From Rathayibacter rathayi (GTDB taxonomy: Bacteria > Actinomycetota > Actinomycetes > Actinomycetales > Microbacteriaceae), in assembly GCF_004011095.1 (NCBI RefSeq), contig NZ_CP028129.1, positions 1,674,001 through 1,738,000 of the forward strand: a stretch of 64,000 nt of DNA, in the 5' to 3' direction. A model generated the notes under the pieces. That model made no database searches. It had not been told where the DNA came from and saw nothing but the letters and a program-made list of their open reading frames with translations. This document shows positions 2,485-24,149 of this stretch, one piece after another. The translations under genes were made by a program, and so were the position numbers. Within the stretch, counting starts at the first letter, position 1, and every line of letters starts with the position of its first letter.

Positions 2485-2589
2485 GGGAATTCCTATTCGT
2501 TGGGTCCGTGCGAGCCGAAGAGGTCGTCGGGGCCTGACCTGGATGGTGCGGGGGTCGAGGGCGGTGCCCTCTCAGGATACGTGCGCCCG

Positions 2590-3384: not shown

Positions 3385-3941
3385 CAGTTGTTCGCCTTCT
3401 CCGAGGCCTCGAGGTCGGCGAGGAAACGGTCCACGATCGCGGACGCCTTCGCGTCGTCGTTGAGGCTCTCGCCGATCACGCCGGAAGCGAGGTCGATGGC
3501 GAGCGTTCCGACTTCGGAGCGGAGCGAGACCACGGCGGCCTGACGGTCCGCCTCGATCTGGGCGTGTGCGTTGTGGAGGATGCGCTCGGCCTCGACCTGC
3601 GCCTGCTCCTTCTTCGCCGCCACGATCGCGTTGCCGTCGGCGTTCGCCTTCTCGCGGATCACTCCGGCCTCGGCACGAGCCTCGGCCAGCTGGGCGGTGT
3701 ACTTCTCGAGGGCAGCCTCGGCCTGTCGCTGGGCCTCGTCGGCCTTGGCAATGTTCCCCTCGATGGCGGCGGAGCGCGCGTCGAGCATCTTCTGCAGACG
3801 CGGCAGGACCAGTCTCCAGAAGAAGAACAGCAGGATGAAGAAGATCACCCCCGACCAGAAGAAGTCGTAGAACTCCGGGATCAGAATGACCGCGGGGACG
3901 TCACCTTCTTCCGCAGCGATGTTCACAGCGGTGCTGAACAC
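3384..3941 (-). CDS. atpF: ATP synthase F0 b subunit
   Basis: Membrane-anchored peripheral stalk. An N-terminal transmembrane segment (FFWSGVIFFILLFFFW) is followed by a long charged coiled coil rich in Ala, Glu, Gln and Lys. From the GTG at 3939-3941 the protein is 185 residues, near the family norm. The start is uncertain: this GTG is 2 nt after the atpE stop with no clear ribosome site, and a second in-frame GTG lies 15 nt downstream. Open frame continues far upstream, but that part overlaps atpE and atpB in another frame and is not coding. Confidence 0.9.
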   Translation of the reverse strand: MFSTAVNIAAEEGDVPAVILIPEFYDFFWSGVIFFILLFFFWRLVLPRLQKMLDARSAAIEGNIAKADEAQRQAEAALEKYTAQLAEARAEAGVIREKANADGNAIVAAKKEQAQVEAERILHNAHAQIEADRQAAVVSLRSEVGTLAIDLASGVIGESLNDDAKASAIVDRFLADLEASEKANN

Positions 3942-3943
3942 GA

Positions 3944-4192
<249 letters not shown>

Positions 4193-4267
4193 TCAGTGGG
4201 TGGTCATGGGAACAGGAACAAGCGGGTGGTGGTCGTGAGAACGGGCGGGAGCCCGTGAGTCGTGAGG

Positions 4268-5116
4268 TCAGTGCTCCTCGGCGACGGCCAACTGGATGTA
4301 GACCGCAGCGAGGAGGGTGAAGATGTAGGCCTGGAGCACGGCGACGAGGAGTTCGAAGAGCGTGAACGCACCGCCGAAGGCGAAAGTCACGACGCCGAAG
4401 AGCTTGAAACCCGGGTCGATCTGGGAGCTGAAGAGGAAGAACTGCGTGGCGGAGAAGCACAGCACCAGCAGGAGGTGGCCGACGATCATGTTCATCACGA
4501 GCCGCAGCGCGAGCGAGAGCGGACGAATGATGAACGTCTGCAACAGCTCGATCGGCGTGAGGATGACATAGATCAGAACCGGCGCTCCGGGCGGGAACAG
4601 CGCGTTCTTGAAGAAGCCCATCCCCCGGTCCTTGATCCCCGCGTAGATGAAGGTCACGTAGGCGACCAGACCCAGGAAGAGCGGCATGCCCACCACAGAG
4701 GTTCCCGCGATGTTGAGGAACGGGACGATCCCGGTCAGGTTCATCGACATGATCGCGAAGAAGATCGTCACGAGGATCGGGAGGAACCGACGCGCGTCCT
4801 TCTCGCCGAGGATGTCCTTCGCGATGGTGACGCGAACGAAGTCGAACGCGAGTTCGACGATGTTCTGGAAGCGGCCGGGAACGAGGCGCAGCTTGCGCGT
4901 CCCGAGCCAGAAGAACAGCATCAGTGCGATGACCGCGATGAAGCGGACCAGCATGACGCGGTTGATCTCGAAAGCGGTTCCCTCGAAGAGGAAACCGGGC
5001 GGGAAGAACTCGGAGATCGACGGGGTGTGGAAGTCACTCTCACCGGTCGAGGACGAGACCAACAGGGTCACAGCGTTAGCAAACAGCGCTAGCTCCTGGA
5101 ATTCGGGGCGTGGCAC
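4268..5116 (-). CDS. atpB: ATP synthase F0 a subunit
   Basis: Stator channel subunit that delivers protons to the c-ring. It has 282 residues with several transmembrane helices; the conserved arginine is in IRPLSLALRLVMNMIVGH, the family's fourth-helix signature. The GTG used here (5114-5116) gives residues before the first clear homology; an in-frame GTG at 5069-5071 is an alternative start. It is first in the atp operon proper, with a promoter-like box about 150 nt upstream. Confidence 0.95.
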   Translation of the reverse strand: MPRPEFQELALFANAVTLLVSSSTGESDFHTPSISEFFPPGFLFEGTAFEINRVMLVRFIAVIALMLFFWLGTRKLRLVPGRFQNIVELAFDFVRVTIAKDILGEKDARRFLPILVTIFFAIMSMNLTGIVPFLNIAGTSVVGMPLFLGLVAYVTFIYAGIKDRGMGFFKNALFPPGAPVLIYVILTPIELLQTFIIRPLSLALRLVMNMIVGHLLLVLCFSATQFFLFSSQIDPGFKLFGVVTFAFGGAFTLFELLVAVLQAYIFTLLAAVYIQLAVAEEH

Positions 5117-5771: not shown

Positions 5772-7009
5772 GATGCTTCCTTCTGCGCCACGATCGGCGC
5801 TGTCGTATCTCGATCGGTCGGGAATCCGGCCGGCGGACGGAGCTGCTCCGTGGAGGACGCACGGTCGAGGGGGTCGAGGACGGGCGAGGCCTCAGCAGAC
5901 TGCGCAGCCGCCTCCCAGCGCTTGCGGCGGCTGAGCGGCGCGAGCGTGACGACGGTGCAGACCAGCAGCCCGACGCCGAGGAAGAGGAGCGGGACCCAGA
6001 GCACGTCGACCACGAACATCAACAGGCAGCTGATGGCGACGACGGCGGTCCAGCCGTAGAAGATCAGGACGGCGTGCAGGTGGGAGTGCCCCATGTCGAG
6101 CAGGCGGTGGTGGAGATGCTTCCTGTCGGCGCTGAACGGGGACTTGCCGGCGCGCAGGCGGCGGATCACGGCGAGACCGAAGTCCATCAGCGGCACCACG
6201 AGGATGGCGAACGGCAGGATGATCGGGATGAACGCGGGCAGCAGCTCCTTCGCCGCGAGCTGCGCGGGATCGATCTGCCCGGTGACCGCGATGGCGGAGG
6301 TGGCCATCAGCATCCCGACCAGGAGAGCGCCGCTGTCGCCCATGAACATCCGGGCGGGGCGCCAGTTGATCGGGAGGAATCCTGCGCACGCGCCGACCAG
6401 CACCACGGCGATCAGCGAGGCGAGGTTGAAGTAGTCGGTGGGCGAGGTCTGCTGCACCAGCAGGTAGCTGTAGAGGAAGAAGACGCCGTTGGCGATCAGA
6501 GCGACGCCGGCGACGAGGCCGTCGAGGCCGTCGATGAAGTTGAGGGCGTTGGTGACAAGGACGATCGCGAGCACCGTGATGATCAGCGACATCCACGGCG
6601 AACCGACCGTCAGCCCGCCGATCGGCAGCGACACGATCTGCACGCCCTTCCAGGCGATCAGGCCCGCAGCGATGAGCTGGCCGGCGAGCTTCGTCGTCCA
6701 GTCCAGGTCCCAGATGTCGTCGGCAACCCCGATGAGGACGATGAGCAAGCTCGCACCAAGAATGGCGAGGATCGGCTCGGGAGTGGCGAACACCAACCGG
6801 AAGTAGGGCAACTGCGAGGCGATGCCGAAGCCGACGAGGATCCCGAGGAACATCGCAATGCCGCCCAGGCGCGGCGTCGGCCGGGTGTGCATGTCGCGAA
6901 TGCGGATCTTCGGGTAAAGCCGATACTTCAGGCTCAGCCGCCAGATGACCCACGACAGCGCTCCGGTCACGAGCGCGACCGCGAGCGAGACGAGGGCGAA
7001 GGTGATCAC
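5768..7009 (-). CDS. wecA: undecaprenyl-phosphate GlcNAc-1-phosphate transferase-like (WecA/TagO, MraY superfamily)
   Basis: Polytopic membrane enzyme that transfers a sugar-1-phosphate to undecaprenyl phosphate and so starts a cell-wall glycan or surface polysaccharide. It has 413 residues. Family motifs in order: the adjacent aspartates in GVADDIWD (DD at 97-98), NFIDGLDGL (157-165), MGDSGAL (223-229) and the HLHH cluster (about 298-301). The charged C-terminal tail is outside the family core. It is 3 nt after tsaC and overlaps the AtpI-like gene by 4 nt. It is a plausible initiator for the polysaccharide genes that begin about 1 kb upstream, although this gene is a standard neighbour of atp genes in related genomes and may serve another wall glycan. 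Confidence 0.88.
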   Translation of the reverse strand: MITFALVSLAVALVTGALSWVIWRLSLKYRLYPKIRIRDMHTRPTPRLGGIAMFLGILVGFGIASQLPYFRLVFATPEPILAILGASLLIVLIGVADDIWDLDWTTKLAGQLIAAGLIAWKGVQIVSLPIGGLTVGSPWMSLIITVLAIVLVTNALNFIDGLDGLVAGVALIANGVFFLYSYLLVQQTSPTDYFNLASLIAVVLVGACAGFLPINWRPARMFMGDSGALLVGMLMATSAIAVTGQIDPAQLAAKELLPAFIPIILPFAILVVPLMDFGLAVIRRLRAGKSPFSADRKHLHHRLLDMGHSHLHAVLIFYGWTAVVAISCLLMFVVDVLWVPLLFLGVGLLVCTVVTLAPLSRRKRWEAAAQSAEASPVLDPLDRASSTEQLRPPAGFPTDRDTTAPIVAQKEAS

Positions 7010-7012
7010 CGG

Positions 7013-8026
7013 CTACTCACCCGCGGCGGGATCGGTGCGGGTGGGACCGGCGCCGGGAGACCCGGTGCGGGCTCCGTCGTCCGGCGTGGCGTCGTCCGGT
7101 GTGGCAGGGCCCGATGCCGCGTCGTCTGGCGCGTCGTCGCCCGGCGTGGCGCCGTCCGATACCGCGTCGTCCGATACCGCGTCGTCCGATACCGCCTCGT
7201 CCTCGAGCCGGGCGCCGGACGCCCAGGCAGGGCGGGCGGAGGGACCGCGATCGAACGCGTAGGGGTCGATCTCCACCGCGACCCGGTCGGTGTCGGCGGA
7301 CTCGGCCTCGATCGGCTCGGGCTCGGACTGCTGCACCTGCGAATCCGGGAAGAGATCGCCCACGACCTCACGGATCCGTTCCGCCGACACGACGCCCTGG
7401 CGCAGGATGCGCAGCGTGCCGCCCTCGAAGCTCAGGGCCGTCGCGTCGACGATGGTGGATGACTCGCTGGCTCCCTGAGGGCGACCGCTGTAGCGCGACC
7501 CGGCGGCACCGGCGTCGAGGTAGACGTCGACCGAGTCGCCGAGCTGATCGAACGCCTCCTGCGCCGTCGTGGCCGAGGGCTGACCTGTCCGGTTCGCCGA
7601 GGAGACCGCGAGCGGTCCGGTCTCCGCGAGAAGCTCGATGGTGACGGGATTGTCGGGCATCCGCAGTGCCACGGTGCCGCGCGTCTCCCCCAGATCCCAG
7701 ACCAGGGAGGGCTGCGCGTGCAGGACGATGGTGAGCCCGCCCGGCCAGAACTCGCGCGCGAGATCGCGCACCGCCTCCGGCACGTTCTCGGCGAGGGCGT
7801 CGAGCGCGGCCACGTCCCCGATCAGCACCGGCGGAGGCGACTGCCGCGTCCGCCCCTTCGCGTCGAGCAGACGCTGGACCGCGGCGGCGTCGAACGCGTT
7901 GGCCGCGACGCCGTAGACGGTGTCGGTGGGGATCACCACGAGTTCGCCGCGGCCGATGGCCGTCCGCGCGAGACGGGTGCCGGTCAGGAGGTCCGTGTCG
8001 ACGGAGCAGTCGTATATGCGTGCCAT
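7013..8026 (-). CDS. tsaC: L-threonylcarbamoyladenylate synthase (TsaC/Sua5 family) with acidic repeat tail
   Basis: Makes threonylcarbamoyl-AMP for the t6A37 modification of ANN-decoding tRNAs. The YrdC domain covers about residues 1-215, with IPTDTVYGVA and the AKGRTRQSPPPVLIGD loop. The last 120 residues are a low-complexity acidic extension with five-residue repeats (DDAVS three times, then ATPDD-like units), encoded by 15-bp tandem repeats at 7076-7105 and 7151-7195. This tail is not the Sua5 domain and is probably disordered. The start is supported by a -10-like box TATCAT 9 nt before the ATG. Confidence 0.9.
   Translation of the reverse strand: MARIYDCSVDTDLLTGTRLARTAIGRGELVVIPTDTVYGVAANAFDAAAVQRLLDAKGRTRQSPPPVLIGDVAALDALAENVPEAVRDLAREFWPGGLTIVLHAQPSLVWDLGETRGTVALRMPDNPVTIELLAETGPLAVSSANRTGQPSATTAQEAFDQLGDSVDVYLDAGAAGSRYSGRPQGASESSTIVDATALSFEGGTLRILRQGVVSAERIREVVGDLFPDSQVQQSEPEPIEAESADTDRVAVEIDPYAFDRGPSARPAWASGARLEDEAVSDDAVSDDAVSDGATPGDDAPDDAASGPATPDDATPDDGARTGSPGAGPTRTDPAAGE
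7076..7195 (+). repeat. 15-bp tandem repeats in the tsaC tail
   Basis: Two copies of a 15-bp unit at 7076-7105 (GTCGTCCGGCGTGGC type) and three at 7151-7195 (GTCGTCCGATACCGC type), separated by degenerate copies. The period equals five codons, so copy-number change would keep the tsaC frame. Confidence 0.85.
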
Positions 8027-8035
8027 AACGCGTCG

Positions 8036-8041
8036 ATGATA
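8036..8041 (-). promoter_or_regulatory. -10 box for tsaC
   Basis: Minus-strand TATCAT lies 9 nt before the tsaC ATG at 8026, giving an almost leaderless transcript. It suggests that the tsaC-wecA-atpI unit is transcribed independently of the polysaccharide operon ending at 8098. Confidence 0.45.
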
Positions 8042-8097
8042 CCGGCGCGCTCCGTGTCCCGACGGGTTGCGGCGCGGCGGTGCGCTCAGCGGCCGCG

Positions 8098-9627
8098 TCA
8101 GCGCGCCCCCGGCCGGCCGCGTACCGTCCCGGATCCGGCAGGAACACGGCCCGGAACGCGCGCAGGAGTGCGGCCCGGAACTCGCGGTGCGGCGCTGGCT
8201 GCGGGGATCCGCACCGCGGTCAGCTCCCCCGTCTCCGCCTCGGTCGCGGAGAGGAGCGCGACGGCGATCGCAAGCGTCGCGAGGGAGTGCTGGTCGCCGA
8301 ACCAGGTGGTGTTATCGGCCATTCCGTGCAGGAAGGTCCACAGGATCGCCACCGCTATCCCTCCCGCTGCCCACGCCTGCCCCTTCTCGACTCGGAGTAC
8401 CAGGCGCAGAGTCCGCCACGTCGCCGTCACGAGCAGGAGCAGAACAGGCACGGCGATGAGGAGTCCCCCGTTGGCCCAGGCGCCGATCAGCAGGTTGTGC
8501 GGCGGCCGCACCTCGCTGTGGGCCGTGAACTGGGAAGCCCGTAGGTGCCACAGATCCTCCCAGCCGCCGTAGCCGAGCCCCAGGAGCCAGTGCTCCGGAA
8601 AGGCGCTCGCCGCGAGCCGAAGGAAGTCGCCTCGTGCGCCGAGGGTGAGTAGACCGGCTTCCGCGAGCTGCGGGAAGAACTCGGCGACGCTGTAGACGGC
8701 GGCCGCACTCGCGGGGAGGGCGATCATCCAGGCCACCGGACCCAGGCTCCTGCCCTTCAGCCCGCGAACCGCGGCGACAGCGAGCGGCAGGACGATCGCG
8801 AGCACGATCGCCGTCTTCGAGAGGGTGAAGAGGGCGCCGGCCAACCCCGCCACGGCAGTCAGTCCGAGCACGCGCGGACCACCCTTGCGCCGAGCAGCGA
8901 AGGCGAGCATCGCGGTGGTCGCCATGTACATCGAGGCGATGTTGCCGTTGAGGAAGAAGCCGCCGGACTTCTCCTGAAGCACATTGTTGAAGGCAGTCGT
9001 GTAGATGTCGCGCACGTACACGTCGGAGTAGAGCACAGCGCCGGGCCAGTGCAGGTAGGCCGCCTCCTGGACCGGGTCGATCTGGAACAGGATGGTCAGG
9101 GCGACCTGGACGAGGAAGACGGGCGTCGCCCACGCGAGCGCGCGCCCGACGATCCGCCAGGCGCTCGATCCGAGCTGCCGGACGGCGAGGTAGGGGCTCA
9201 GGAACGAGAGAACCGAGACGGACTCGCGCAGGCCCACCGCAGCGGTCCGGGAATAGGTCAGGGCGAAGAGCGTCGCGACGAGGAGGAAGGCGACGAGAAC
9301 GACGACGCGATCGACGTGAGAGCCACGGAGCCGGATCAGGAGGTACGGCAGGAAGAGCAGGCTCCACGCGACCGGAGCGGTGAACGGGCCGAGCGTGTAC
9401 AGCTGGAGGACGCTCAGGGCCAGGAGCACGGCCAGGAACAGCAGGAGCGCTTTCTCGCGGCGCTGCTGAGCGGGATCGACCAGTTGCCGCGACGGTCTGG
9501 CTCGAGCCGAGGACCCGCGGCGCGGGGCCGGGGTTCCGGTCCGCCGAGTCGATGAGACGGCGGACGGGCGGCCGGCGGCGGTGTCGCGGACCGCGGTGGC
9601 GGTGAAGGAATCGGCGTGGCGACCCAT
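8098..9627 (-). CDS. O-antigen ligase/polymerase (Wzy-type) membrane protein
   Basis: 509 residues with about 10-12 transmembrane segments. The large periplasmic-side loop and the PPHNLLIGAWANGG run are typical of the Wzy/WaaL superfamily, where the His lies near the catalytic loop. The basic N-terminus (about 1-60) and the Pro/Arg-rich C-terminus are likely cytoplasmic. It is the last gene of the left arm, about 520 nt after the Wzx-GT fusion and beyond a strong hairpin, so it may have its own promoter. It probably polymerises or ligates the repeat unit; the substrate is unknown. Confidence 0.8.
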   Translation of the reverse strand: MGRHADSFTATAVRDTAAGRPSAVSSTRRTGTPAPRRGSSARARPSRQLVDPAQQRREKALLLFLAVLLALSVLQLYTLGPFTAPVAWSLLFLPYLLIRLRGSHVDRVVVLVAFLLVATLFALTYSRTAAVGLRESVSVLSFLSPYLAVRQLGSSAWRIVGRALAWATPVFLVQVALTILFQIDPVQEAAYLHWPGAVLYSDVYVRDIYTTAFNNVLQEKSGGFFLNGNIASMYMATTAMLAFAARRKGGPRVLGLTAVAGLAGALFTLSKTAIVLAIVLPLAVAAVRGLKGRSLGPVAWMIALPASAAAVYSVAEFFPQLAEAGLLTLGARGDFLRLAASAFPEHWLLGLGYGGWEDLWHLRASQFTAHSEVRPPHNLLIGAWANGGLLIAVPVLLLLVTATWRTLRLVLRVEKGQAWAAGGIAVAILWTFLHGMADNTTWFGDQHSLATLAIAVALLSATEAETGELTAVRIPAASAAPRVPGRTPARVPGRVPAGSGTVRGRPGAR

Positions 9628-10149: not shown

Positions 10150-10170
10150 TCAAACCCTCGGAGCGCTCAG
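10066..10170. repeat. tandem repeats at the 3' end of the Wzx-GT gene
   Basis: Two 14-bp units (about 10066-10094) are followed by five units of about 15-18 bp with the core CGGAGCGCTCAGACCC (10091-10170). The last units run into the coding end of the fusion gene (residues LLSAPRV), so slippage here would change the protein's C-terminus. Confidence 0.75.
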
Positions 10171-12810
10171 CAGCTCGTCGGCCCGACGCGCGATGTCCGG
10201 CCAGCCGAATGCGGCTGCGCGACGGCGCGATGCCTCCGCGATCTCCTCCCGGCGGATCGGATCGCGCAGGTCCGCGAGCAGACGCGGGAGGGCCTGGATC
10301 ATCGCGGCCGCGACCTCCTCGCCGGTGCCGGGCGCAACGAGCACCGACCCGTCGATCACTCCATCGGGGGTACGCAAGATCTCGGGGATGCCTCCGCGCT
10401 CGACCGTCAGGACCGGGAGCCCCCGGGAGAGCGCCTCCACCACGACCATCCCGAACGGCTCGTCCCAGCGGCAGGGGTAGAGCAGCAGCGCCGAGGAGGC
10501 GAAGAGCTCCAGCAGGTCCTCATGGCGGAGAAAGGGCAGACGGCGCACCGTCCCGGGCAGGGCGGATACCGCCTCGTCGAGTGCTCGGACGTAAGCGGTC
10601 GGTGTCGCGTCGTCACCGAGGCCCGAGGCTCCCGCGATCACGAGGCGAAGCTCCTCCCGGCCGGCCGCGTTCAGCCTCTGCAGGATCTCGACCGCCTCGC
10701 GGGCGCCCTTCTCGGGAACCAGCCGCCCGGCGAAGACCGCCTCCGGAACGGGGCCGAGCGGGCGCGGCGCGCGATCGACCGCCGGTACGACGCCGTTGTG
10801 GAGGACTGCCGTCGCCCGCAATCCGTAGCGCTTGACCGCGCGCTCCCGGAGGAACTCGCTGCAAAAGATCCACTCGTCCACGGCGTCGAGGTAGGGACGG
10901 GCGGCGACGTGATCCGACGGGAGGTGGTCGAGGAGGTCGTTGTGCTGGTGCGCCACGATCCGCCCGCGGTAACCCAGGCGGCGCAGCCGCACGGCGTACC
11001 GGGGACGGTTGTGGATCCAGACCGTCGGGACGCGACGCAGCGACGGGGCGAGATGGAGCAGCCAGGGGCGCCCACCGAGGGACAGGCGGCGCAGCTGCGC
11101 GGCGGGATCGCTGTCGCGTCGACGGGCCAAGAGCAGGGCCACGCGCCGCTGTGCGGAGTAGACCCGTCGGTAGAGGAGGTGCCGCGGGACGTCGACGCCC
11201 GGCGTCGGCACCGACCACGGCGCGTGTACGACGATCCTCAGCTGCGACCGCGAGACCGTCTCGCGGACCCACGTCGCCACGGCTCCGCCGCTGCCGTCGA
11301 AGCGCTCCTCCGCCGCCAGTACCACGGCGACGTCGACCGGATTCGTGGAGCGGGGCCGGAACCGGGCGGGCAGCCGCGAGAGGACGAGGGAGCGCGCGTC
11401 GGCGAGATCCCGGCCAGGAGCCAGCAGCACGGTCGCCGCCAGGACCAGCCCGGCAAGCGCCAGCTCCACGGGGAACAGGCGGAGGAGGGAGCCCTCGGGG
11501 AGCAGCCGGAGCAGGAGGAGGACGGCAGCCATCGGCGCCGCGAGCAGCGGGCCCGCCACGCACGCACGCAGGAAGGCGCCGAGGCGCACTCCGAGGACGA
11601 CCCGCAGCACGCCATAGGTGACGAAGAAGCCGATGACACTCGAGACCAACAGACCGCCGATGAGGCCGTCGAGTCCGAACAGCACTCCCCCGCCGACGAT
11701 CAGGGGGATCGTGATCGCCGTCTTCGCGATGTTCACGACCAGGCCGAAGCGCACCCGGTCCATCGCCATCAGGATGAAGCCGACGGGGTTGCCGATCGCC
11801 CGCACCGCTCCCACCACGGTAAGGGCGCTGGTCATCCCGGCAATCCAGCCCCAGTCCGGCCCGTAGAACAGGCGCACGATGTCCTCGGAGCGCAGCGCCA
11901 CCAGAGTCAGGGGCGGAATGCTGGCCATGCTGAGCACGGCAGTGACGCTGAGGTAGTTCCGTGCTACACGGTCACGGTCGTGCTGGATGGAGGAGAAGAC
12001 CGGGAACATCACGCGCGTCACGATCGGGTTGACGCGCGCGGGCAGGTTCACCGCGAGGTTGTAGCCGAGCGTGTATCCGCCCAGCTGAGCCGGACCCAGC
12101 AGACGGCCGATCGCGAGCGAGCTGGCGTTCGAGCCGAGGTAGTTCACGATGCCGTCGAGGGTCTGGAAGACGCCGAAGGAGAGAAAACGCGCGGTCTCGC
12201 GAATCCGGAACCGCAGGCGCAGACGGAACCAGCGCCGAGCCTGCACCAGAGCGAGGGCTGAGCGCAGCGCCGCCGTCGCGACGAGCCCCCAGGCGTAAGA
12301 GAGGGCGCCGGTGCCCGAGAATGCGAGGAAAACCGTGACGACGAAGCCGCCCACGAGCGAGACCGTCTCGGACACAGCGACCGCTCTGAATCGGATGCCC
12401 TTCTCGAGTACCGCCCGCGGGACCTGCCCAGCGGCGCTGCCGACAAAGACGAGCGAGGCGACAGAGAGGACCGGCGCTGCCACTGCGGAGCCGAGCAGTG
12501 CGGCGATCGGCCCAGCGGTCAGGAACACGACGCCAGTGACCGCGAGGCCCACCGAGAGGTTGAGCCAGAACACGGAGGAGAGCTCGAAGCTGGTCGCGCG
12601 ACGGCGCTGGATGATCGCCTGCGCAACCCCCATGCCGAGGAAGATGTCGACGAAGGCGTTCAGCAGGCCGACGATCGCGATGATGCCCATTTCGGAGGCG
12701 TCCAGCAGACGCGCAAGCAACGCGAACTGCCCCAGCTGCACGACCAGGGCGACGGCGAACGAGATCGCAGTCCAGGTGGTGGCATCGACGGTCGTCCGGC
12801 GCAGGCTCAC
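10150..12810 (-). CDS. fused Wzx-type flippase and GT4 glycosyltransferase
   Basis: One uninterrupted frame of 886 residues from the GTG at 12808-12810, which overlaps the upstream stop by 4 nt (GTGA). Residues 1-465 form a MOP-superfamily lipopolysaccharide/polysaccharide exporter with about 12-14 transmembrane helices (for example NASSLAIGRLLGPAQLGGYT at 228-247). Residues 466-491 are a linker ending RPRSTNPVDV. Residues 492-886 are a GT4 glycosyltransferase with the nucleotide-sugar motif region AVFAGRLVPEKGAREAVEIL and the E(x7)E element FGMVVVEALSRGLPVL. No internal stop, frameshift or good ribosome site separates the two parts; the natural GT start (VDVAVV) begins with GTC, not a start codon. 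Wzx and GT are normally separate genes, so this is unusual. A sequencing error deleting a stop is possible but has no sign in the sequence. Confidence 0.88.
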   Translation of the reverse strand: MSLRRTTVDATTWTAISFAVALVVQLGQFALLARLLDASEMGIIAIVGLLNAFVDIFLGMGVAQAIIQRRRATSFELSSVFWLNLSVGLAVTGVVFLTAGPIAALLGSAVAAPVLSVASLVFVGSAAGQVPRAVLEKGIRFRAVAVSETVSLVGGFVVTVFLAFSGTGALSYAWGLVATAALRSALALVQARRWFRLRLRFRIRETARFLSFGVFQTLDGIVNYLGSNASSLAIGRLLGPAQLGGYTLGYNLAVNLPARVNPIVTRVMFPVFSSIQHDRDRVARNYLSVTAVLSMASIPPLTLVALRSEDIVRLFYGPDWGWIAGMTSALTVVGAVRAIGNPVGFILMAMDRVRFGLVVNIAKTAITIPLIVGGGVLFGLDGLIGGLLVSSVIGFFVTYGVLRVVLGVRLGAFLRACVAGPLLAAPMAAVLLLLRLLPEGSLLRLFPVELALAGLVLAATVLLAPGRDLADARSLVLSRLPARFRPRSTNPVDVAVVLAAEERFDGSGGAVATWVRETVSRSQLRIVVHAPWSVPTPGVDVPRHLLYRRVYSAQRRVALLLARRRDSDPAAQLRRLSLGGRPWLLHLAPSLRRVPTVWIHNRPRYAVRLRRLGYRGRIVAHQHNDLLDHLPSDHVAARPYLDAVDEWIFCSEFLRERAVKRYGLRATAVLHNGVVPAVDRAPRPLGPVPEAVFAGRLVPEKGAREAVEILQRLNAAGREELRLVIAGASGLGDDATPTAYVRALDEAVSALPGTVRRLPFLRHEDLLELFASSALLLYPCRWDEPFGMVVVEALSRGLPVLTVERGGIPEILRTPDGVIDGSVLVAPGTGEEVAAAMIQALPRLLADLRDPIRREEIAEASRRRAAAFGWPDIARRADELLSAPRV

Positions 12811-14261
12811 CGGACCCGCCCGGCGCCGGAGGACCGCGGAGTGAGCGGAGCATCCTCCTCCGCCGTCGAGGGGCGTCGCCTCCGCCAGACCTGCTCGGAG
12901 GTGGCCGGCGGGCCCGGCACCATCAGCACCGCGAGGACCGCGATCCAGGTCAGCCACGAGACTCCATCGAAGTCGTCGATCCGCAGGGGCATCTCGGCCA
13001 GCGAGCACGCGAGCAGCATCAGGACGAAGAGGTAGCTGACCATCGAGCGGTCGAAGTAGGTGAGCGAGCGCACCAGGACGCTGACGAGGAACACGACGAG
13101 GGCGGCGAGGAGGACGAGCCCGCCCCAGACCATCGTCGAGGCGAAGAGATTGTGCCCGTGCCACGGCGTGTGGCCGATCAGGCGGGGCAAGATTCCCTCC
13201 TTGGTGAAGGCGTTCGTGGAGAGCCCGAAGACCAGATGGTCGGGGATCACGCTCATCGACGACATCCAGATCGCGCCGCGGCTGGTGAGCGCCGAACGAT
13301 CGTGCACCACCATCGGGAGCAGCACCACGGCGGTGGCGGCCATCACGACGGCACCGACAGCGAGAACGCGACGGGTGCCCGAGTGACGCACCAGACGCAG
13401 GACGACCGCCACGAGGATCGTGATTCCCGCGGCGATCAACGAGGTTCGCGACGCGCTGAGCACCAGGTTCGCCACGACGATGGCGAGCCCCGAGTAGCGG
13501 GCCCTGCGTGTGCGCAACAGGAGGACGAAGGGCAGCCCCAGCGCCATCGTCATGCCGAGCACGTTCATCTGCGGGAAGATTCCGGCGAGCAGGCGCGTGC
13601 CGATCAGGGCCTTGGTCTCACCGGCGAGGAGGGCGTCCTCGCGCATCCAGCCCTGATCGGTGAGTCCGGTGAGCAGGCTGGCGAGACCGATGAGGACGAC
13701 GGCCACACCGAGAACGCGCAGGTCGTCCCAGCGCGGCGCGATCGACCAGAGCGCGATGACGAGCGCGAGGATCACCCAGTACTTCGGCGTCGGGTTGACG
13801 GCGCCGACGGCGATCGTGTTGGTCAGCTGTGCTGTCACGAGGTACACGCCCGCACCCACGAGACCGATCAGGTTGGCCCGCCTGCGCCGGAGGTTGAGGA
13901 AGACGATGACAGCAACGCCGAAGAGGAAGAGCGTCGGCGCCCACTGGTCAACCGCGGCGCCGAGGGAGCTCGGGTTCACCGCTCCGGTCGAGTAGCCGTC
14001 GGAGGCCGCGCGCCCCGCGACGAACAGGTCGACGATCTTTCCGCCCGAGGTCATCGTGAAGGCGAGGAACAGGACGACCGCGAAGTGGAGGCGGCGACGG
14101 CGGGTGTCGTGCGCGTCCCGCTCGGACGCGGACTCCTCCTCGGAGAAGGTCGGCCAGCCCGTGCGTGTGCTCGGGAATGGAGCCGTCGAATGGCTGCGGA
14201 CGGGGACGGCGGTCCTTTGACGGTGGTGGCGTTCGTCCACGGCGTGCTTGGCGAGGCTCAT
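12807..14261 (-). CDS. O-antigen polymerase-like (Wzy) membrane protein
   Basis: 484 residues with about 11 transmembrane segments and a family-typical outward loop (LIGHTPWHGHNLFASTMVWG). Hydrophilic N-terminus of about 60 residues. Likely joins undecaprenyl-linked repeat units. Its ATG overlaps the preceding GT stop by 4 nt and its stop overlaps the next start by 4 nt, so it sits in the middle of a translationally coupled operon. It pairs with the Wzx half of the next gene. Assigned on topology and context, as Wzy proteins share little sequence. Confidence 0.75.
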   Translation of the reverse strand: MSLAKHAVDERHHRQRTAVPVRSHSTAPFPSTRTGWPTFSEEESASERDAHDTRRRRLHFAVVLFLAFTMTSGGKIVDLFVAGRAASDGYSTGAVNPSSLGAAVDQWAPTLFLFGVAVIVFLNLRRRRANLIGLVGAGVYLVTAQLTNTIAVGAVNPTPKYWVILALVIALWSIAPRWDDLRVLGVAVVLIGLASLLTGLTDQGWMREDALLAGETKALIGTRLLAGIFPQMNVLGMTMALGLPFVLLLRTRRARYSGLAIVVANLVLSASRTSLIAAGITILVAVVLRLVRHSGTRRVLAVGAVVMAATAVVLLPMVVHDRSALTSRGAIWMSSMSVIPDHLVFGLSTNAFTKEGILPRLIGHTPWHGHNLFASTMVWGGLVLLAALVVFLVSVLVRSLTYFDRSMVSYLFVLMLLACSLAEMPLRIDDFDGVSWLTWIAVLAVLMVPGPPATSEQVWRRRRPSTAEEDAPLTPRSSGAGRVR

Positions 14262-15463
14262 TCTCGGTCTCCATTCGTCGTCACCGAGAGCCGGCGGGCT
14301 GCCCGGTCGTAGAGGTCTTCGAGGTCGCCGATGCGCTCGGCGAGATCGAAGGAGGCGAGCACGCGCTCGCGGCCCGCACGGCCCATCCGCACGGCCCGCT
14401 CCGGGTCCCTGAGCAAGGCCGCGAGTGACCGCGTGAGGGCGGGCACGTCGCCTTCCGCGACGAGCAGCCCGGTGACGCCGTCCTGCACCGCCTCCGGAAC
14501 GCCGCCGTGGCGATACGACACCACGGGTGCTCCGGCGAGCGCGGCCTCGAGGAAGACCATGCCGAATCCCTCCGCGTCGCCGTTCGCCGCGGTGAGCGAT
14601 GGGGCGCAGAAGACGGCCGCGCCGGAGAGGACCCGGGCGACCTCGGAGGGTGGCAGGGAACCGGCGAACGTCACCCCCAGGCGCAGGCGTGCCGCCTGCT
14701 CGACGAGGGTCGCTCGCAGGTGGCCGTCGCCGACGATGGTGAGAGGAACCTCGCGCAGCGGAGCGGGCAGGGCCGCCACCGCCGCGAGCAGATCGGCGAC
14801 GCCCTTCTTATCGGAGAGCCGACCGACGAAGACGATTCCCTCGCGGGCGGCGTCCGGGGCGGCCCCGTCGCCGGAGGTCGGGATCCCGATGTGGCTGACC
14901 ACAGTGCGCGCAGGATCGGCACCGAGGCGGACCAGCCCGTCGGCGATGAAGCGGGAGACGCCGATCAGGGTGTGCGCGGAGCGGAACACGGCGCGGGCCG
15001 CGCGCGCGCGCTGACGGCGAGCAAGCGGCCGGAGGAGGCGAGGAGCTCCGTTCACGAGGGGCCAGCTGGTGACGTCGTAGCCGTGACCCGTCACCACCAG
15101 CGGGAGGCCGCGGCGTCGCGCGTAGCGTGCGATGTAGGTGGCGTCGACGAGGAAATGCGCGTGAATCACCGCGGGCCGGTGCTCGGCGACGATCGCGTCG
15201 AGCCGCCGCGACACTCCGAACCAGCGCAGCAGGATCGCCCGGCGGCGGAGCGCGGTGATCGGGTCGTGCAGGACAAGGTCCGTGCTGTCGCGCAGGACGC
15301 CCGAGCCGGTGAGTTCAAGGCCGACGCCGAGGGCGCGCCAGCGCTGAAGACCGCGCATCTGATTGCGGACGAAGGTCTCCGAGTCCTGCAGCCAGGCGCG
15401 CTTCCAGACGAGGACCACGGGGCGCTCCGACGTCCGGTCGCGCTCGGACTCAACGGGAGGCAT
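14258..15463 (-). CDS. GT4 family glycosyltransferase
   Basis: 401 residues from the ATG at 15461-15463. N-terminal Rossmann domain with HAHFLVDATYIARYARRR and VVTGHGYDV; C-terminal domain with VFVGRLSDKKGVADLLAAV and the acidic element GFGMVFLEAALAGAPVVSYR. Retaining nucleotide-sugar transferase acting on the cytoplasmic face; donor and acceptor unknown. It overlaps the WecG/TagA gene by 14 nt and the Wzy gene by 4 nt. Confidence 0.85.
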   Translation of the reverse strand: MPPVESERDRTSERPVVLVWKRAWLQDSETFVRNQMRGLQRWRALGVGLELTGSGVLRDSTDLVLHDPITALRRRAILLRWFGVSRRLDAIVAEHRPAVIHAHFLVDATYIARYARRRGLPLVVTGHGYDVTSWPLVNGAPRLLRPLARRQRARAARAVFRSAHTLIGVSRFIADGLVRLGADPARTVVSHIGIPTSGDGAAPDAAREGIVFVGRLSDKKGVADLLAAVAALPAPLREVPLTIVGDGHLRATLVEQAARLRLGVTFAGSLPPSEVARVLSGAAVFCAPSLTAANGDAEGFGMVFLEAALAGAPVVSYRHGGVPEAVQDGVTGLLVAEGDVPALTRSLAALLRDPERAVRMGRAGRERVLASFDLAERIGDLEDLYDRAARRLSVTTNGDRE

Positions 15464-16226
15464 GACGCACCCGGTAGTGCAGCGCCGCGGCCACGCTCGG
15501 CAGCACCCGTACAGCGTCGCCGAGGTAGCGGCGCCAGAGACGGCCGGGCTCGCGGCTGAGCCGGTGCGCCCACTCGAGGCCGAGCCGCTGCACCAGCAGT
15601 GGCGCCCGCGGGATCTCGCCGGCGAGGAAGTCGATGGCGGCGCCGACGCCCAGGCACACCGCTCCGGTGCCGCCGACCTCGAGCAGACGCTCGCGCACCT
15701 CCTCCTGCTTCGGCGAGCCGAGGCAGAGCGCGACGATGCGGACCTCGTCCGCGCGCAGGGTCGCGGCCAGGCGCGCGAGGTAGGCGTCGTCGGCGAGATC
15801 GGCGGGCTCGGGAGCGACGACGACCGGCAGCTGGAGTCCGGGGAAGCGGTGCTGCAACTCGGCCGCGGCACGGTCGCCGATGCCCGGGCGTCCGCCGATC
15901 AGTGCTACCGGGGCGCCCTCGAGCGCCGCGCGCCGACAGACCTCGGTGAAGAGGTCGATCCCCGTGACGCGACTCGCGGAGCGGTGCCCGTACCAGCGGG
16001 CAAGCCAGACCAGGGGCGTTCCATCGAGCACCACCAGGGACGCGCGGCCGTAGTAGCGACGGAATGCACCCGAGTGCTTCCACCGAACGAAGTGATCCGT
16101 GTTCGGAGTGACGACGAGCTCGTCGCGGCCGCTCCGGGACAACTCGAGCACCGCATCCGCCGCCTCGTCGAGCGTGGTGATGCTGGCGGGCATGCGCTCG
16201 ATGCGGCCGGTGATGTAGGACGTCAT
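15450..16226 (-). CDS. WecG/TagA/CpsF family glycosyltransferase (left arm)
   Basis: 258 residues, normal for the family. Shows VLDGTPLVWLARWYG, RVTGIDLFTEVCRRA and CLGSPKQEEVRERLLEVGG, the conserved blocks of N-acetylmannosaminuronic/N-acetylmannosaminyl transferases that act on GlcNAc-PP-undecaprenol. With the WecA-like enzyme it would add the second sugar. A strong ribosome site (TGAGGAG) precedes the ATG at 16224-16226. A second member of the family lies in the right arm at 28882-29640. Confidence 0.88.
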   Translation of the reverse strand: MTSYITGRIERMPASITTLDEAADAVLELSRSGRDELVVTPNTDHFVRWKHSGAFRRYYGRASLVVLDGTPLVWLARWYGHRSASRVTGIDLFTEVCRRAALEGAPVALIGGRPGIGDRAAAELQHRFPGLQLPVVVAPEPADLADDAYLARLAATLRADEVRIVALCLGSPKQEEVRERLLEVGGTGAVCLGVGAAIDFLAGEIPRAPLLVQRLGLEWAHRLSREPGRLWRRYLGDAVRVLPSVAAALHYRVRHASR

Positions 16227-16263
16227 GCCGGGACTCCTCAAGAGTGGGGGCGGGCGGGGGTGG

Positions 16264-17139
16264 TCACCGCGCGGCGTGCGCGCGGAAGGAGGCGGCGAGG
16301 CCGGCCAGGTGGCGGCGCTCCGGTGGCCGCAGCGAGGCGGCGGCGTCGAGAAGGGCACCAAGCTGCACATGGAGGTCGGCGGGCGCCTGCCCCGGCGGGA
16401 AGCCCTCGCGGCGCCACGCGAACCAGCCGGGTGCGAAGCCGAGCTCGCGGCGCCCCAGGTCGGCGAACGCCTCGGCCACCAGAGTGCTATCGCTCTTCGA
16501 GCGGATCCACGCGGGATCAATCGTCGTCTGACCCGCATGTCGGAGGTAGAGGACGGTGGGCACGGTGTCGCGTAGCAGACGGTGCCCGGCGGTGATCGCA
16601 CGGAGGTAGAGGTCGAAGTCCTCCGCGGCGACCGCTCGGTAGCCGCCGAGCGCCCTGACGACGCTCGTGCGGCCCGTCATGGTCGGGTGCATCAGCGGAT
16701 TCTCGAGGAGCAGGGCGAGGGCGATCGCGCGGCTCGACAGGCGCGGGAGCAGCTGGGGCTTGAGCAGCGGGATCGGCGGCTTGCGGATGAGGACGGTCGA
16801 GAAGACGAGGTCAGTTCCGCGCGCCAGGAGCTGGCCCTGACGGCGAAAGCGCCACGGCAGAGCGCGGTCGTCGCCGTCCAGGATCGCCAGGTACGGCGTC
16901 TCGACCTGCTCGAGGAGGGCGTTGCGCGAGGCGGGGATCCCCTGCGGCGACGTGTCGTCGAGGATGCGAAGTCGACGATCAGCGATACGGCCGACGACCG
17001 CCGCGGTCGCGTCCTCACTCCCGTCGTCGCGGACGAGGACGCGGCCGGAGGCCGGCAGGGCGGCCAGGGCGCTGCGAACCGAGGCGCCGATGGTCCCCTC
17101 GGCGTTTCGGGCGGTGATGCAGACGGTCAAGCCGTTCAT
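16264..17139 (-). CDS. GT2 family glycosyltransferase
   Basis: 291 residues from the ATG at 17137-17139 with AGGAG upstream. GT-A fold signs: TVCITARNAEGTIGASVRS at the N-terminus, VRDDGSEDATAAVV, and the metal-binding DxD-like LAILDGDDRALPW. A later HPTMTGRTSVVRALGGYR block precedes AAEDFDLYLRA, which supplies the catalytic-base region of GT2 enzymes. Inverting transferase on an undecaprenyl-linked acceptor is expected. The start overlaps the upstream GT2 stop by 4 nt. Confidence 0.87.
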   Translation of the reverse strand: MNGLTVCITARNAEGTIGASVRSALAALPASGRVLVRDDGSEDATAAVVGRIADRRLRILDDTSPQGIPASRNALLEQVETPYLAILDGDDRALPWRFRRQGQLLARGTDLVFSTVLIRKPPIPLLKPQLLPRLSSRAIALALLLENPLMHPTMTGRTSVVRALGGYRAVAAEDFDLYLRAITAGHRLLRDTVPTVLYLRHAGQTTIDPAWIRSKSDSTLVAEAFADLGRRELGFAPGWFAWRREGFPPGQAPADLHVQLGALLDAAASLRPPERRHLAGLAASFRAHAAR

Positions 17140-18158
17140 CGGGTGCTCCTGCGGTTGGCGAGTCGGCGGTGGGTGTCGTGCACGGCATAGAGCACCCGGC
17201 TGAAGACGGTGAAAGCGGCCGGCAGGTGCTTCAGCACCAGCCCCAGGGCGAGCAGACGCGGTCTCTGGGCGGAACGGAACAGGTCGACATCCTGAAGCGC
17301 GGCGGACCCGAGCCGGACGCCCGAGTTCACCAGCGCGCGGTCGGCGTTCTGGCGGATCGGGGTGAGGGCGACGGGGACCGCGTAGAACCAGGTCGTGAAC
17401 CAGTCGGACAGCGGCCTCGGCACGTTCCCGAACGTCCGGGCGAGTGCTGCGCGCATCTCCTCCGCACAGACGAGGAGGTTGCCGAGGTCCGGATCGCGAC
17501 GGCGGGTGATCGAGGCGGCGGTGTAGACGTAGGAGTAGAGGATCTCTGGGACGAAGAGCACCCGCTCCGACGCCTGCACCGCCCGCAGCACGCCGATGAA
17601 GTCGGACTGGGAGCTCAGCCGCGGGAAGAGGTCCTGCTGCAGGACGCGGCGGCGGAAGAGCTTGTTCCACAGGAAGCCGTGCAGCTGCCCGGACGCCATC
17701 CGCTCCAGGGCTTGCTCGGACGAGATCAGCTCACGGCGGTCGAGGCCGTCGATCACCCGCCCGGAGGCGGACTGACGGGTCCGGTAGAGCGCCCGGCAGA
17801 CGACGATGTCGGCGGCCGTTCGCTCGGCCTCGGTGGCCAGGGTCCGCAGGATCGCCGGATCCCACTCGTCGTCGACGTCGACGAACCAGACGAACTCCGA
17901 GTCGGCCTCGGCGAGCGCTCGATTGCGAGCGGCCGCGACTCCGCCGTTCTGAGCGTTGCGGAGGACCTGTGCGTCCTCGCGCCCCGCGGCCCAGCTCTCG
18001 AGCACCTCCGCAGAGTCGTCGGAGGAGGCGTCATCCACGAGCAGGACACGCATGCCAGGCCCGAGGGTCGTGCCGAGCGCGGCAAGGAAGCCGTCGAGTT
18101 GGGAGATCGCGTTGTAGCAGGGCGCGATGACGGTCACCGAGTGCGTCGACGCGGTCAC
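17136..18158 (-). CDS. GT2 family glycosyltransferase
   Basis: 340 residues. N-terminal SVTVIAPCYNAISQLDGFL, LLVDDASSDDSAEVLE, GGVAAARNRALAEADSEFVW and the DxD-like FVDVDDEWDP are GT2 landmarks. The C-terminal third (WFTTWFYAVPVALTPIRQNA) is amphipathic and may contact the membrane. Couples by 4-nt overlaps to the GT4 gene upstream and the GT2 gene downstream. Confidence 0.86.
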   Translation of the reverse strand: MTASTHSVTVIAPCYNAISQLDGFLAALGTTLGPGMRVLLVDDASSDDSAEVLESWAAGREDAQVLRNAQNGGVAAARNRALAEADSEFVWFVDVDDEWDPAILRTLATEAERTAADIVVCRALYRTRQSASGRVIDGLDRRELISSEQALERMASGQLHGFLWNKLFRRRVLQQDLFPRLSSQSDFIGVLRAVQASERVLFVPEILYSYVYTAASITRRRDPDLGNLLVCAEEMRAALARTFGNVPRPLSDWFTTWFYAVPVALTPIRQNADRALVNSGVRLGSAALQDVDLFRSAQRPRLLALGLVLKHLPAAFTVFSRVLYAVHDTHRRLANRRSTR

Positions 18159-19222
18159 CGCCGGGCTCCGAGTCGACGGTAGGCAGCGAGGACGGGGCCG
18201 AAGACGGCGTCCGGAGACGCGACTGCGTCGACCCAGGCCTTCGCCCGATCCGCCTGCCTCAGCAGCTCGTCCGGATGGTCCAGCGCCGCGGCGATCGTCG
18301 CGGCGATCTCGTTCGCTCCCGCGTCCGCGGGCAGAAGCAGGCCTCTGCCCTCGGCGAGGAGCTCGCCCACCCCACCCACCTCGGTCGCCACCACAGGGCG
18401 GCGCCGGGCCATCGACTCGAGCATCACGAGGGGCGTCCCCTCCCAGCGCGATGTCGACAGGAGCAGATGCGCCGCGTCGAGCGCGCCGGTCACGTCGCCC
18501 GACGGCCCGGCGAACTCGACCACTCCGGCCGCCCGCGCGCGCTCGCGCAGCACCGGCAGCATCGGCCCGTCGCCCAGCCAGGTGGCCGCGACGGGGCGGA
18601 TCCGGGCCAGAGCCTCGATCGCCGCGAGGAAGCGCACCGGATCCTTCTGCTCCGCGAGCCGCCCGATTCCCACAACCCGCACGACCGGCTCGGCAAGCGC
18701 CGACTCCTGCGCGGGCTCGGCAGTCACGTTCGCCGGCGTATTGCCGGTGACCACCACGCGCGCCGGCGGGCGGCCGTAGCCGTCGACGACCATCCGCCCC
18801 ACGGAGGCGGAGACGGCGAACACCCGTCGCGAGCGGAACGAAAGCGCACGCCGGTCGATGGCGGGCAGCTCCGTGTGCGCGTGTTCGACGACGGGCACAC
18901 GCAGCGCGAAGCCGACGAGGAGCGCCAGCAGCGCTTCGCGGCGCTGATGGGCGTGCAGGACGTGCGGTCGGAAGCGCCGAACGGCCAGCGCGAGATCGCG
19001 CAGGTCGGCGCAGAAGCGCTGCTCGGGGGCGCGGACGACGAAGACCGCTGAGTCCCGGGCCGCAGGGCCGCTGAGTGGTCCTGGCCTGCCCCAGTAGGCG
19101 GTGGCGCAGCCGTGCTCCCTGCTCCAGGAGCCGAGCGAGAGGGCGACACGCTGAGCTCCCCCGTCCTCAAACGAGTCCAGGACGTGGAGGACCCGGAGCG
19201 ACGACGTGCGCCGAGCCCTCAT
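18155..19222 (-). CDS. GT4 family glycosyltransferase
   Basis: 355 residues. N-terminal RVLHVLDSFEDGGAQRVAL is the acceptor-side glycine-rich loop of GT4 enzymes; VLHAHQRREALLALLVG and VVEHAHTELPA follow; the C-terminal donor domain has VVGIGRLAEQKDPVRFL and STSRWEGTPLVMLESMARR. Likely adds one sugar of the repeat unit. Its start overlaps the NTase-PqqD stop by 4 nt. Confidence 0.86.
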   Translation of the reverse strand: MRARRTSSLRVLHVLDSFEDGGAQRVALSLGSWSREHGCATAYWGRPGPLSGPAARDSAVFVVRAPEQRFCADLRDLALAVRRFRPHVLHAHQRREALLALLVGFALRVPVVEHAHTELPAIDRRALSFRSRRVFAVSASVGRMVVDGYGRPPARVVVTGNTPANVTAEPAQESALAEPVVRVVGIGRLAEQKDPVRFLAAIEALARIRPVAATWLGDGPMLPVLRERARAAGVVEFAGPSGDVTGALDAAHLLLSTSRWEGTPLVMLESMARRRPVVATEVGGVGELLAEGRGLLLPADAGANEIAATIAAALDHPDELLRQADRAKAWVDAVASPDAVFGPVLAAYRRLGARR

Positions 19223-20586
19223 GTGCTCGCCCCGGCCGAGGCGGCGTCGGGGAAGAAGTCATCGAGCACGGCGAGGACGGCGTCGACATCGCGGCCCATC
19301 GTCTCCGGATCGACGCCGTAGCGCTCGGCGAGCTGCGCGACGACCTCGTCGCGCGCTCGTCGCTGCTGGATCACGGCCTCGAAGACGGTGTCTGCGCTGA
19401 GCGAGAGGACAACGGGCGGCGACGCCGGGCGGGAGAGGTCGAGCACGTAGGCCTGCTCGTCGGTGCGCTCCACGGCGAAACGCTCGCGCGGATGCGGTCC
19501 AGGAGCGGAGTCGTCGACCGGCGCGGGACTCGCGTCGGCGATGTTCGCACTCGCCTCGACGACGGCGGGAGTCTCGTCCGTCGGCGCCGCGGCCTCGGCG
19601 ACCTCCTCGGCCGGGGCGGCCGGAGCGGCCGGCGTCGGACCGACGTCGCCTCCCGACCTCGCCACCCGGATGAATCCGGACAGGGCGGAGGGCAGGCCGC
19701 GGACGGCGCGGACGCTCCGCTCCCACCGCAGGCGCAGGCGGCGGCGCGTCGTGGTCGTGCCGGGGTGGCTGGCCTCCAGATCGGCTCGGGTGGGGAAGGC
19801 GGCGCGCAGCAGCAGTGTCCCCTTGAGGTGCCAGGGGGCGGAGGCGATGGCATGCAGCCAGTTGAAGGTGTGCCGGTCGGAGCAGCGCCGGACGTCCCAG
19901 AGCGCCTGCGCGCGGCGGTGGCGCTCGTCGGCCGGGGCGGGCACACCCCAGGAGGTGAGCAGCTCGGCCATCGGCGTCTGCGCTCCGAGCTCCACGGCAG
20001 CGGCGCGGATCGCCTCCTTGTCCTTCTGCGGCAGGGCTGCGCCGTGAGCCTCCAGCGCGGCGAGAATCGTCGCCGAGGAGGCCGAGCGCGCGCTCCGCAG
20101 CTGGTGCAACGCGTGCAGGACCAGATGGTGGGCGGCGTCCGGAATGAGGAGGACCTCGTCGCTGAGCGGCAGCTTCTTGTGGGAGGCCCAGAGCCGCTCG
20201 AAGACGACCCGGTCCGCCTCGAAGGCACCGGGGAAGGAACGGTGCACATCGACGTCGCACGGCCAGGAGGGGTGCACGAGCGTGATCGAGTGGTCGACGA
20301 AGAGCGTCCAGCTCAGGGCCTCGGCGCGCCGGTTCCAGCCCATATCCGCGAGCAGGGTGATGGCATCGTCGAAGCGATCGGGGTCGACCCACAGGTCGAC
20401 ATCGGCCGACGTCATGGGCGCGCGGATGCCCTGTCGGTGCAGCCCCTCGCCCTTCACGACCAGGCTGCGGATGCCGTAATCGTCCAGGGTGTACTGCACG
20501 AGCACGGCCGCTAGCCGCAGCGCGACAGCGCTGGGAAGTGCGGCGACGACGAAGGTCTCGGGAGTCGAGGTCGGATCAGGCGACAC
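19219..20586 (-). CDS. nucleotidyltransferase-like (NTP_transf_5) protein with C-terminal PqqD-like domain
   Basis: 455 residues from the GTG at 20584-20586 (GGAGG 9 nt upstream). Residues about 20-250 resemble the uncharacterised nucleotidyltransferase family PF14907, with LVVKGEGLHRQG, TSADVDLWVDPDRFDDAI and CDVDVHRSFPG supplying the acidic metal-binding pattern. Residues about 310-375 are low-complexity Ala/Pro/Glu. Residues about 375-455 look like a PqqD winged helix (LAERYGVDPETMGRDVDAVL). PqqD domains are peptide-recognition elements in RiPP pathways, and PF14907 and PqqD proteins are neighbours in some exopolysaccharide/exosortase loci. The role in this operon is not known. Confidence 0.72.
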   Translation of the reverse strand: MSPDPTSTPETFVVAALPSAVALRLAAVLVQYTLDDYGIRSLVVKGEGLHRQGIRAPMTSADVDLWVDPDRFDDAITLLADMGWNRRAEALSWTLFVDHSITLVHPSWPCDVDVHRSFPGAFEADRVVFERLWASHKKLPLSDEVLLIPDAAHHLVLHALHQLRSARSASSATILAALEAHGAALPQKDKEAIRAAAVELGAQTPMAELLTSWGVPAPADERHRRAQALWDVRRCSDRHTFNWLHAIASAPWHLKGTLLLRAAFPTRADLEASHPGTTTTRRRLRLRWERSVRAVRGLPSALSGFIRVARSGGDVGPTPAAPAAPAEEVAEAAAPTDETPAVVEASANIADASPAPVDDSAPGPHPRERFAVERTDEQAYVLDLSRPASPPVVLSLSADTVFEAVIQQRRARDEVVAQLAERYGVDPETMGRDVDAVLAVLDDFFPDAASAGAST

Positions 20587-22038: not shown

Positions 22039-23998
<1,960 letters not shown>

Positions 23999-24136
23999 GG
24001 AAAAGAGGAGCGAAGGGGCCCGATCGACCGTCGATGATTCATTCTCCTTCTCCAGCTACCCTCTCCGGGGGACGCTTTAGAGCCCGAAACAGGGTCTGAC
24101 GGGGCCTCCCGCGACATCGGCGAAACGTGACCTTGC
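23999..24136. other. spacer between the two rmlAB cassettes
   Basis: Together with leader 2 this is the only sequence between the identical cassettes and is not repeated upstream of copy 1. A small palindrome (ATCGAC-C-GTCGAT) follows rmlB1. No clear terminator is visible. A promoter lies at its right end. Confidence 0.5.
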
Positions 24137-24142: not shown

Positions 24143-24149
24143 TACGCCC

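Follow-up and report, generated by a model that had tools for sequence, protein, structure and literature searches.

The closest described relatives of the protein considered here are the flippases WzxC (colanic acid) and TuaB (teichuronic acid), the stand-alone exopolysaccharide glycosyltransferases (GTs) of family GT4 represented by the EpsE and TuaC models, the PelF-PelG pair and mycobacterial MviN. In its operon tuaC follows tuaB, PelG is a MOP protein, and MviN is a MurJ-type flippase (MOP) with a C-terminal pseudokinase. To our knowledge, the direct hand-over of lipid-linked sugar units from the building enzymes to the flippase is an open question in polysaccharide export. PelF and PelG bring a GT and a transporter together in one inner-membrane complex (PMC9894940). 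Here we describe a gene of Rathayibacter rathayi, located on a 64-kb window (the whole stretch of DNA analysed, from contig NZ_CP028129.1), in which a WzxC-like MOP flippase and a GT4-like GT occupy one frame of 886 codons (Table 1). A full-text literature search, which covered the best-ranked papers and left most subscription journals outside, returned no earlier report of a flippase-GT fusion, a weak absence.

The minus-strand frame 12810..10150 contains no internal stop. The bare frame is weak evidence, because the G+C content of the window (69%) makes long open frames cheap and the list of open reading frames includes one of 579 amino acids (aa) antisense to the gene; the fusion goes beyond chance because the single frame is conserved in relatives. 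The original prediction, made from the letters of the window, had placed a flippase at aa 1–465 and a GT at aa 492–886 of one 886-residue frame, and its coordinates and lengths, the Pfam matches and the alignment of relatives all agree with this. Comparison with related sequences confirmed that the fusion is real. NCBIfam and Pfam matched the two halves by separate models only.

The gene of Rathayibacter tanaceti, a member of the same genus, has the same single frame on its contig and is 82% identical over aa 2–883. Five further fused homologues share about 37–40% identity with the window protein. 'Microbacteriaceae bacterium' VKM Ac-2855 contributes two of them (40% and 38%), Microbacterium testaceum DE0422 one, and the genomes G886 and G798, both of the latter genus, one each. 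In total, seven fused proteins from six genomes were recovered, none with an internal stop, in two Microbacteriaceae groups (Rathayibacter and Microbacterium). The pairwise alignment with R. tanaceti has no gap across the 886 codons of the window gene, the linker is free of indels, and most changes in it are at third codon positions. The ratio of nonsynonymous to synonymous substitution rates (dN/dS) in this pair is 0.13 for the flippase, 0.22 for the linker and 0.20 for the GT, with identities of 87%, 77% and 77%, respectively. Between the window and R. tanaceti the linker is, by these codon comparisons, under selection as protein. Three of the four relatives in the five-row alignment A1 have a 6-column gap in the linker.

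The flippase half matched Polysacc_synt_3 at aa 31–320 with 216.6 bits (cut-off 23) and the second model of the tested Pfam pair (PF13440/PF01943) with 119.6 bits (cut-off 28.2). It also passed NCBIfam NF007773/PRK10459, 'MOP flippase family protein' (333 bits, cut-off 273), which we take to stand for WzxC, and aa 1–364 are about 35% identical to genes annotated as wzxC. The TuaB model was matched below its cut-off (236.5 versus 580 bits). The WzxC and TuaB models end at 492 and 469 positions, respectively, whereas the fused protein carries a whole GT beyond. MviN is likewise a MOP flippase extended at its C-terminus, but there the added part is regulatory rather than a sugar transferase and the flippase belongs to a different family. 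Hydropathy analysis gave 12 peaks within aa 1–463, and a thirteenth in the GT core was discounted. About 12, and up to 14, transmembrane helices are expected in this flippase family; PMC6436433 gives 12 as the usual number for Wzx flippases. The 95-residue stretch at aa 192–286 may hide a further, amphipathic pair. The loops hold 28 lysine and arginine residues on the side of the N-terminus versus five on the other side, with the C-terminal part left out. Because of the even number of peaks and this charge pattern, the C-terminus and the GT are predicted to be cytosolic, with both flippase ends inside. Nucleotide-sugar donors are cytosolic.

In the GT half, Glycos_transf_1 was found at aa 689–841 (74 bits, cut-off 26.4) and the second model of the pair PF00534/PF13692 scored 69.5 bits (cut-off 27). 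Alignment with relatives extends the domain to about aa 492–886. The N-terminal GT4 domain (Glyco_transf_4 or Glyco_trans_4_4) gave no Pfam match in the fused protein at E 0.01; aa 492–688 are nevertheless conserved among the fused proteins. Three motifs are invariant in A1: GGAVA-W close to the start of the GT, GRL--EKG, and EPFGMV, the last with an acidic residue after it. The resulting pattern is E-x7-E in the window protein and R. tanaceti and E-x7-D in the three distant relatives. The GR...EKG and E-x7-E/D motifs presumably comprise the GT4 donor-site residues, and these are kept in all five rows; the domain is catalytically plausible. The Glycos_transf_1 domain and the GT4-type motifs are shared with stand-alone exopolysaccharide transferases; the EpsE and TuaC models were matched weakly (43.1 and 20.5 bits), far under their cut-offs (400 and 550), and the GT described here differs further in being tethered to a flippase. 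A sequence search against solved structures returned 44 distinct sequences; every match lay in the GT half (aa 667–813 for the best, E 1.4e-10) and none in the flippase half.

Genomes were searched as samples, with the best few candidates per genome scored at strict E-values, and the resulting counts are therefore lower bounds. The fused protein occurred in three of 15 genomes of the window's genus. The family sample (E 1e-40) yielded it in two of 398 genomes (the window's own and VKM Ac-2855), with one more genome having the flippase only, and the class sample (E 1e-45) in one of 394, the own genome. Twelve of 396 genomes matched in the phylum sample (profile, E 1e-45); the own genome alone was fused and the other 11 were flippase-only. 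Among 295 genomes of the M. testaceum genus (E 1e-40), 22 matched: three with a fused protein, one with a split pair and 18 with the flippase only. The genus and the family of Micromonospora thermarum gave one match each (1/121 and 1/180), the same split pair both times. A contig scan of an 84,980-species collection with six exact peptide patterns returned 163 relatives; among the 80 that were kept, both halves lay side by side in four (three fused, one split). Two other loci among these 80 were rejected as fusions, since their weak matches to both halves lay 5 kb apart (L040) or on opposite strands (L047). Plasmid records matched (n = 254) with no single place covering 80% of the query, 45 stretches of viral contigs fitted a pattern with none encoding a relative, and none of seven scanned long open frames of other flippases had a second domain by Pfam. 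The sampled searches at these strict thresholds, which did not look for fusions of independent origin by domain architecture, found no fused relative beyond the two Microbacteriaceae groups; this accords with the expectation that no common family has this architecture. The joined protein appears to be real, inherited and rare, and is apparently made by some soil and plant bacteria.

Homologous flippases and GTs encoded side by side as two genes were found in M. thermarum (L038) and in G874 (L127/L148), in both cases next to a Wzy_C gene; these pairs differ from the fused protein in being overlapping genes in different frames. The M. thermarum flippase gene spans 8001–9497 and the GT gene begins with ATG at 9463 (35-nucleotide (nt) overlap), while in G874 (L127) the flippase gene runs to 2955 and the GTG start of the GT lies at 2942 (14-nt overlap, read by eye). 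The GT frame is shifted in the same way from the flippase frame in both pairs. A stop plus a separate GT start in relatives had been named beforehand as a sign that the fusion is spurious; two relatives do have this arrangement, but it looks ancestral rather than erroneous, since the genes are open and overlapping and lie outside the fused clade in the flippase tree. That tree has 34 rows. In it all seven fused proteins group as a single clade (100/98), to which the split pairs are adjacent (joining fork 85/79), and all are nested in flippases that lack a fused GT. A single change of state is enough, and no split pair lies inside the fused clade. Four alternative groupings of fused and split proteins were rejected in the approximately unbiased (AU) test (p-AU 0.0084, 0.0141, 0.0059 and 0.0056), a test weakened by the groupings having been named after the tree was seen. 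The joined flippase and GT data gave the fused clade at 94/96, which is not a starred branch. Most likely there was one fusion of a coupled, overlapping flippase-GT gene pair that was then kept, as suggested by the single flippase clade of the fused proteins. In this history a lone WzxC-like flippase would have become associated with this GT as an overlapping, translationally coupled gene pair, followed by one fusion and later spread or duplication of the fused gene; the last step is suggested by both VKM Ac-2855 copies, which group with the Microbacterium rows rather than with the window gene.

With regard to function, we lean towards a bifunctional membrane protein in which the GT adds a late sugar to the lipid-linked repeat unit and passes the unit to its own flippase. 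The sequences themselves establish the architecture, the selection on the junction, the common descent of the flippase half and the existence of split relatives, whereas topology, activity, order of steps and channelling are inferences from them. The setting would be a Wzx/Wzy-type exopolysaccharide cluster. A Wzy-like polymerase gene adjoins the flippase in the window, Wzy-like genes were found near the fusion elsewhere (36.0 bits in L146; 34.5 in L147; 24.4 in L036, under the cut-off and on the other strand), and the Wzy_C genes beside the split pairs scored 50.7 bits in G874 (L148) and 64.1 in M. thermarum (L038). The gene at 11461–12699 of L035 had no Wzy_C match. Beside the cytosolic mouth of the flippase, the GT domain would attach a late and perhaps the final sugar of the undecaprenyl-pyrophosphate-linked repeat unit; a finished unit would pass to the flippase without delay, and incomplete or unflipped units would not accumulate on the cytosolic leaflet. 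As presented in PMC6436433, the 'Structure-Specific Triggering' model has Wzx flipping triggered by elements of the finished unit, which were terminal sugars in the cases studied, and PMC4863624 describes an arrest of growth once units or intermediates collect at the cytosolic face. A tether of a late transferase to the flippase would serve both. The natural, heritable fusion together with its split relatives is evidence from evolution that the two, this GT and this flippase, work jointly. It further offers a natural test case for physical coupling of sugar assembly and export, and marks one of the cluster's transferases as a late-step candidate.

Several observations weigh against this bifunctional protein. 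An overexpression argument in PMC6436433 holds that Wzx needs no complex to flip, while leaving open a different behaviour in a complex. That export is coupled to the final sugar transfer is a hypothesis, as sugar, step and channelling are not readable from sequence. The GT domain reached no NCBIfam GT cut-off, so that neither the sugar nor the step of unit assembly can be assigned. Trees of the GT alone were undecided: grouping the fused GTs together (p-AU 0.197) and two other groupings (0.175 and 0.204) were all retained. None of the three scanned neighbours of VKM Ac-2855 copy 2 (L149) is Wzy-like, and two of them encode a DNA polymerase III delta-type protein and a hydrolase; this copy may lie outside a polysaccharide cluster. 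Finally, four of the seven fused genes have a start codon 22–26 codons ahead of the GT motif with a Shine-Dalgarno (SD)-like match of 4–5 nt, from which a separate GT product might be made in these four.

A more demanding form of the coupling is a self-gating flippase, in which the fused transferase places the very sugar that triggers flipping, making unit completion and export one event in a single protein. We put this forward tentatively. If true, it would keep unfinished units from escaping and lipid carrier from accumulating on the cytosolic leaflet.

It is rather unlikely, but deserves consideration, that the fusion is neutral, i.e. that coupled, overlapping genes lost their boundary by chance, that both domains have kept their former workings, that the GT acts at any assembly step, and that the tether provides 1:1 stoichiometry and membrane location only. 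The ancestral-looking state is indeed an overlapping pair and one fusion event is enough; the linker is short, less conserved than the flippase (77% versus 87%) and exactly as conserved as the GT (77%). Yet the fusion has persisted among members that are only about 37–40% identical, the fused clade includes no split pair, and the grouping of both VKM Ac-2855 copies with the Microbacterium rows suggests that the fused gene was passed on or duplicated whole.

Separate production of the GT from a fused frame, additionally or exclusively, through an internal start or through proteolytic cleavage of the linker, is improbable. The original prediction had noted no internal start near a ribosome site; this stood for the window gene, whose junction has no ATG, GTG or TTG with an SD-like match, but the four fused genes mentioned above do have one: VKM Ac-2855 copy 1 (AAGGA, spacing 7), M. 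testaceum (GGTGA, 4), G886 (GTGAT, 6) and R. tanaceti (GAGG, 11). In copy 1 (L036 8004–10667) the GTG with AAGGA sits 26 codons before the GT motif, and the matches of the other three are weaker. Across the seven fused genes, 7 of 22 in-frame junction starts have an SD-like match of 4 nt or longer ahead of them, versus 74 of 381 starts elsewhere; for 5 nt or longer the counts are 3 of 22 versus 19 of 381. This small excess on few cases would favour separate production. On the other side, the window gene and G798 have no such match, nor does VKM Ac-2855 copy 2 at that place, matches of 4 nt are common throughout the seven genes, and the comparison of the window with R. tanaceti shows the linker to be under selection as protein.

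A Pel-like arrangement, in which the GT4 and the MOP transporter would form a polymerising synthase-exporter such as PelF with PelG rather than a unit-by-unit flippase, is highly improbable. PelF and PelG are separate proteins of a synthase-type pathway; the window protein matched no PelF model (NF038011) at E 0.01, and the Micromonospora GT matched it weakly (18.2 bits versus a cut-off of 100). The flippase half is WzxC-like with no PelG family match, and Wzy-like genes lie alongside. A sequencing or assembly error at the junction, which the stop and separate start of the two split relatives might suggest, is practically excluded because the linker has no indel relative to R. tanaceti and a dN/dS of 0.22, there being no frame change between the two and the same single frame recurring in genomes of two groups assembled apart.

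The features of the fused gene and its neighbourhood are listed in Table 1.

Table 1. Coordinates in the window of the fused gene, its parts and the neighbouring polysaccharide genes
Feature	Position	Strand	Evidence or remark
Fused flippase-glycosyltransferase gene	10150..12810	minus	886 sense codons; GTG start codon at 12810, stop codon at 10152-10150
WzxC-like MOP (PST) flippase domain, aa 1-465	11416..12810	minus	Pfam PF13440/PF01943, NCBIfam PRK10459, hydropathy
Linker, aa 466-491 (26 codons)	11338..11415	minus	Alignment, dN/dS
GT4-like glycosyltransferase domain, aa 492-886	10153..11337	minus	Pfam PF00534/PF13692, invariant columns of alignment A1
Second Wzy-like gene, downstream of fused gene	8098..9627	minus	Wzy_C 26.9 bits, below cut-off of 31.7
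Wzy_C/O-antigen-ligase-like gene	12807..14261	minus	32.7 bits (cut-off 31.7); its stop overlaps the fused gene start by 4 nt
GT4 glycosyltransferase gene upstream of Wzy gene	14258..15418	minus	4-nt overlap with Wzy_C-like gene
WecG/TagA-type gene	15450-16226	minus	Sugar-transfer run 15450..19222
Two GT2 genes	16264-17139, 17136-18158	minus	Sugar-transfer run 15450..19222
GT4 gene	18155-19222	minus	Sugar-transfer run 15450..19222

At 8098–31742 the window seems to carry two polysaccharide clusters in back-to-back arrangement, one on the minus strand (8.1–21.6 kb) and one on the plus strand (22.0–30 kb or more), together holding three Wzy_C-like genes (8098, 12807 and 26339) and two WecG/TagA-type genes (15450 and 28966). 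Within 22036–26201, an rmlA-rmlB-like pair is tandemly duplicated (22036–23985 and 24252–26201; 100% identity over 1950 nt, 2216 nt apart), which is either very recent or an assembly artefact. The gene at 19219–20505, inside the sugar cluster, encodes NTP_transf_5 (uncharacterised nucleotidyltransferase) with a C-terminal PqqD domain and a weak PqqD-type NCBIfam match. Just past the second cluster, 31892–35350 encodes a protein of 1152 aa that carries a DNRLRE domain at its C-terminus (56.9 bits, cut-off 34) and shows a weak match of heparin-lyase type (25.8 bits versus a cut-off of 600).

Two single open frames matched GT families only and have the look of GT-GT fusions. In L107 (Mucilaginibacter contig, 2366–4432, 689 aa), two Glycos_transf_1 stretches lie in one frame, and in L049 (Rothia contig, 6342–8507, 722 aa) a GT4 N-terminal-type stretch at 73–171 is followed by a complete GT4 at 382–689. 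The nearest non-actinobacterial GT relative among the loci of the contig scan is a lone GT in a Calothrix metagenome assembly (L039, 7974–9113), which matched the GT profile at 1.6e-48 and sits on a long branch.

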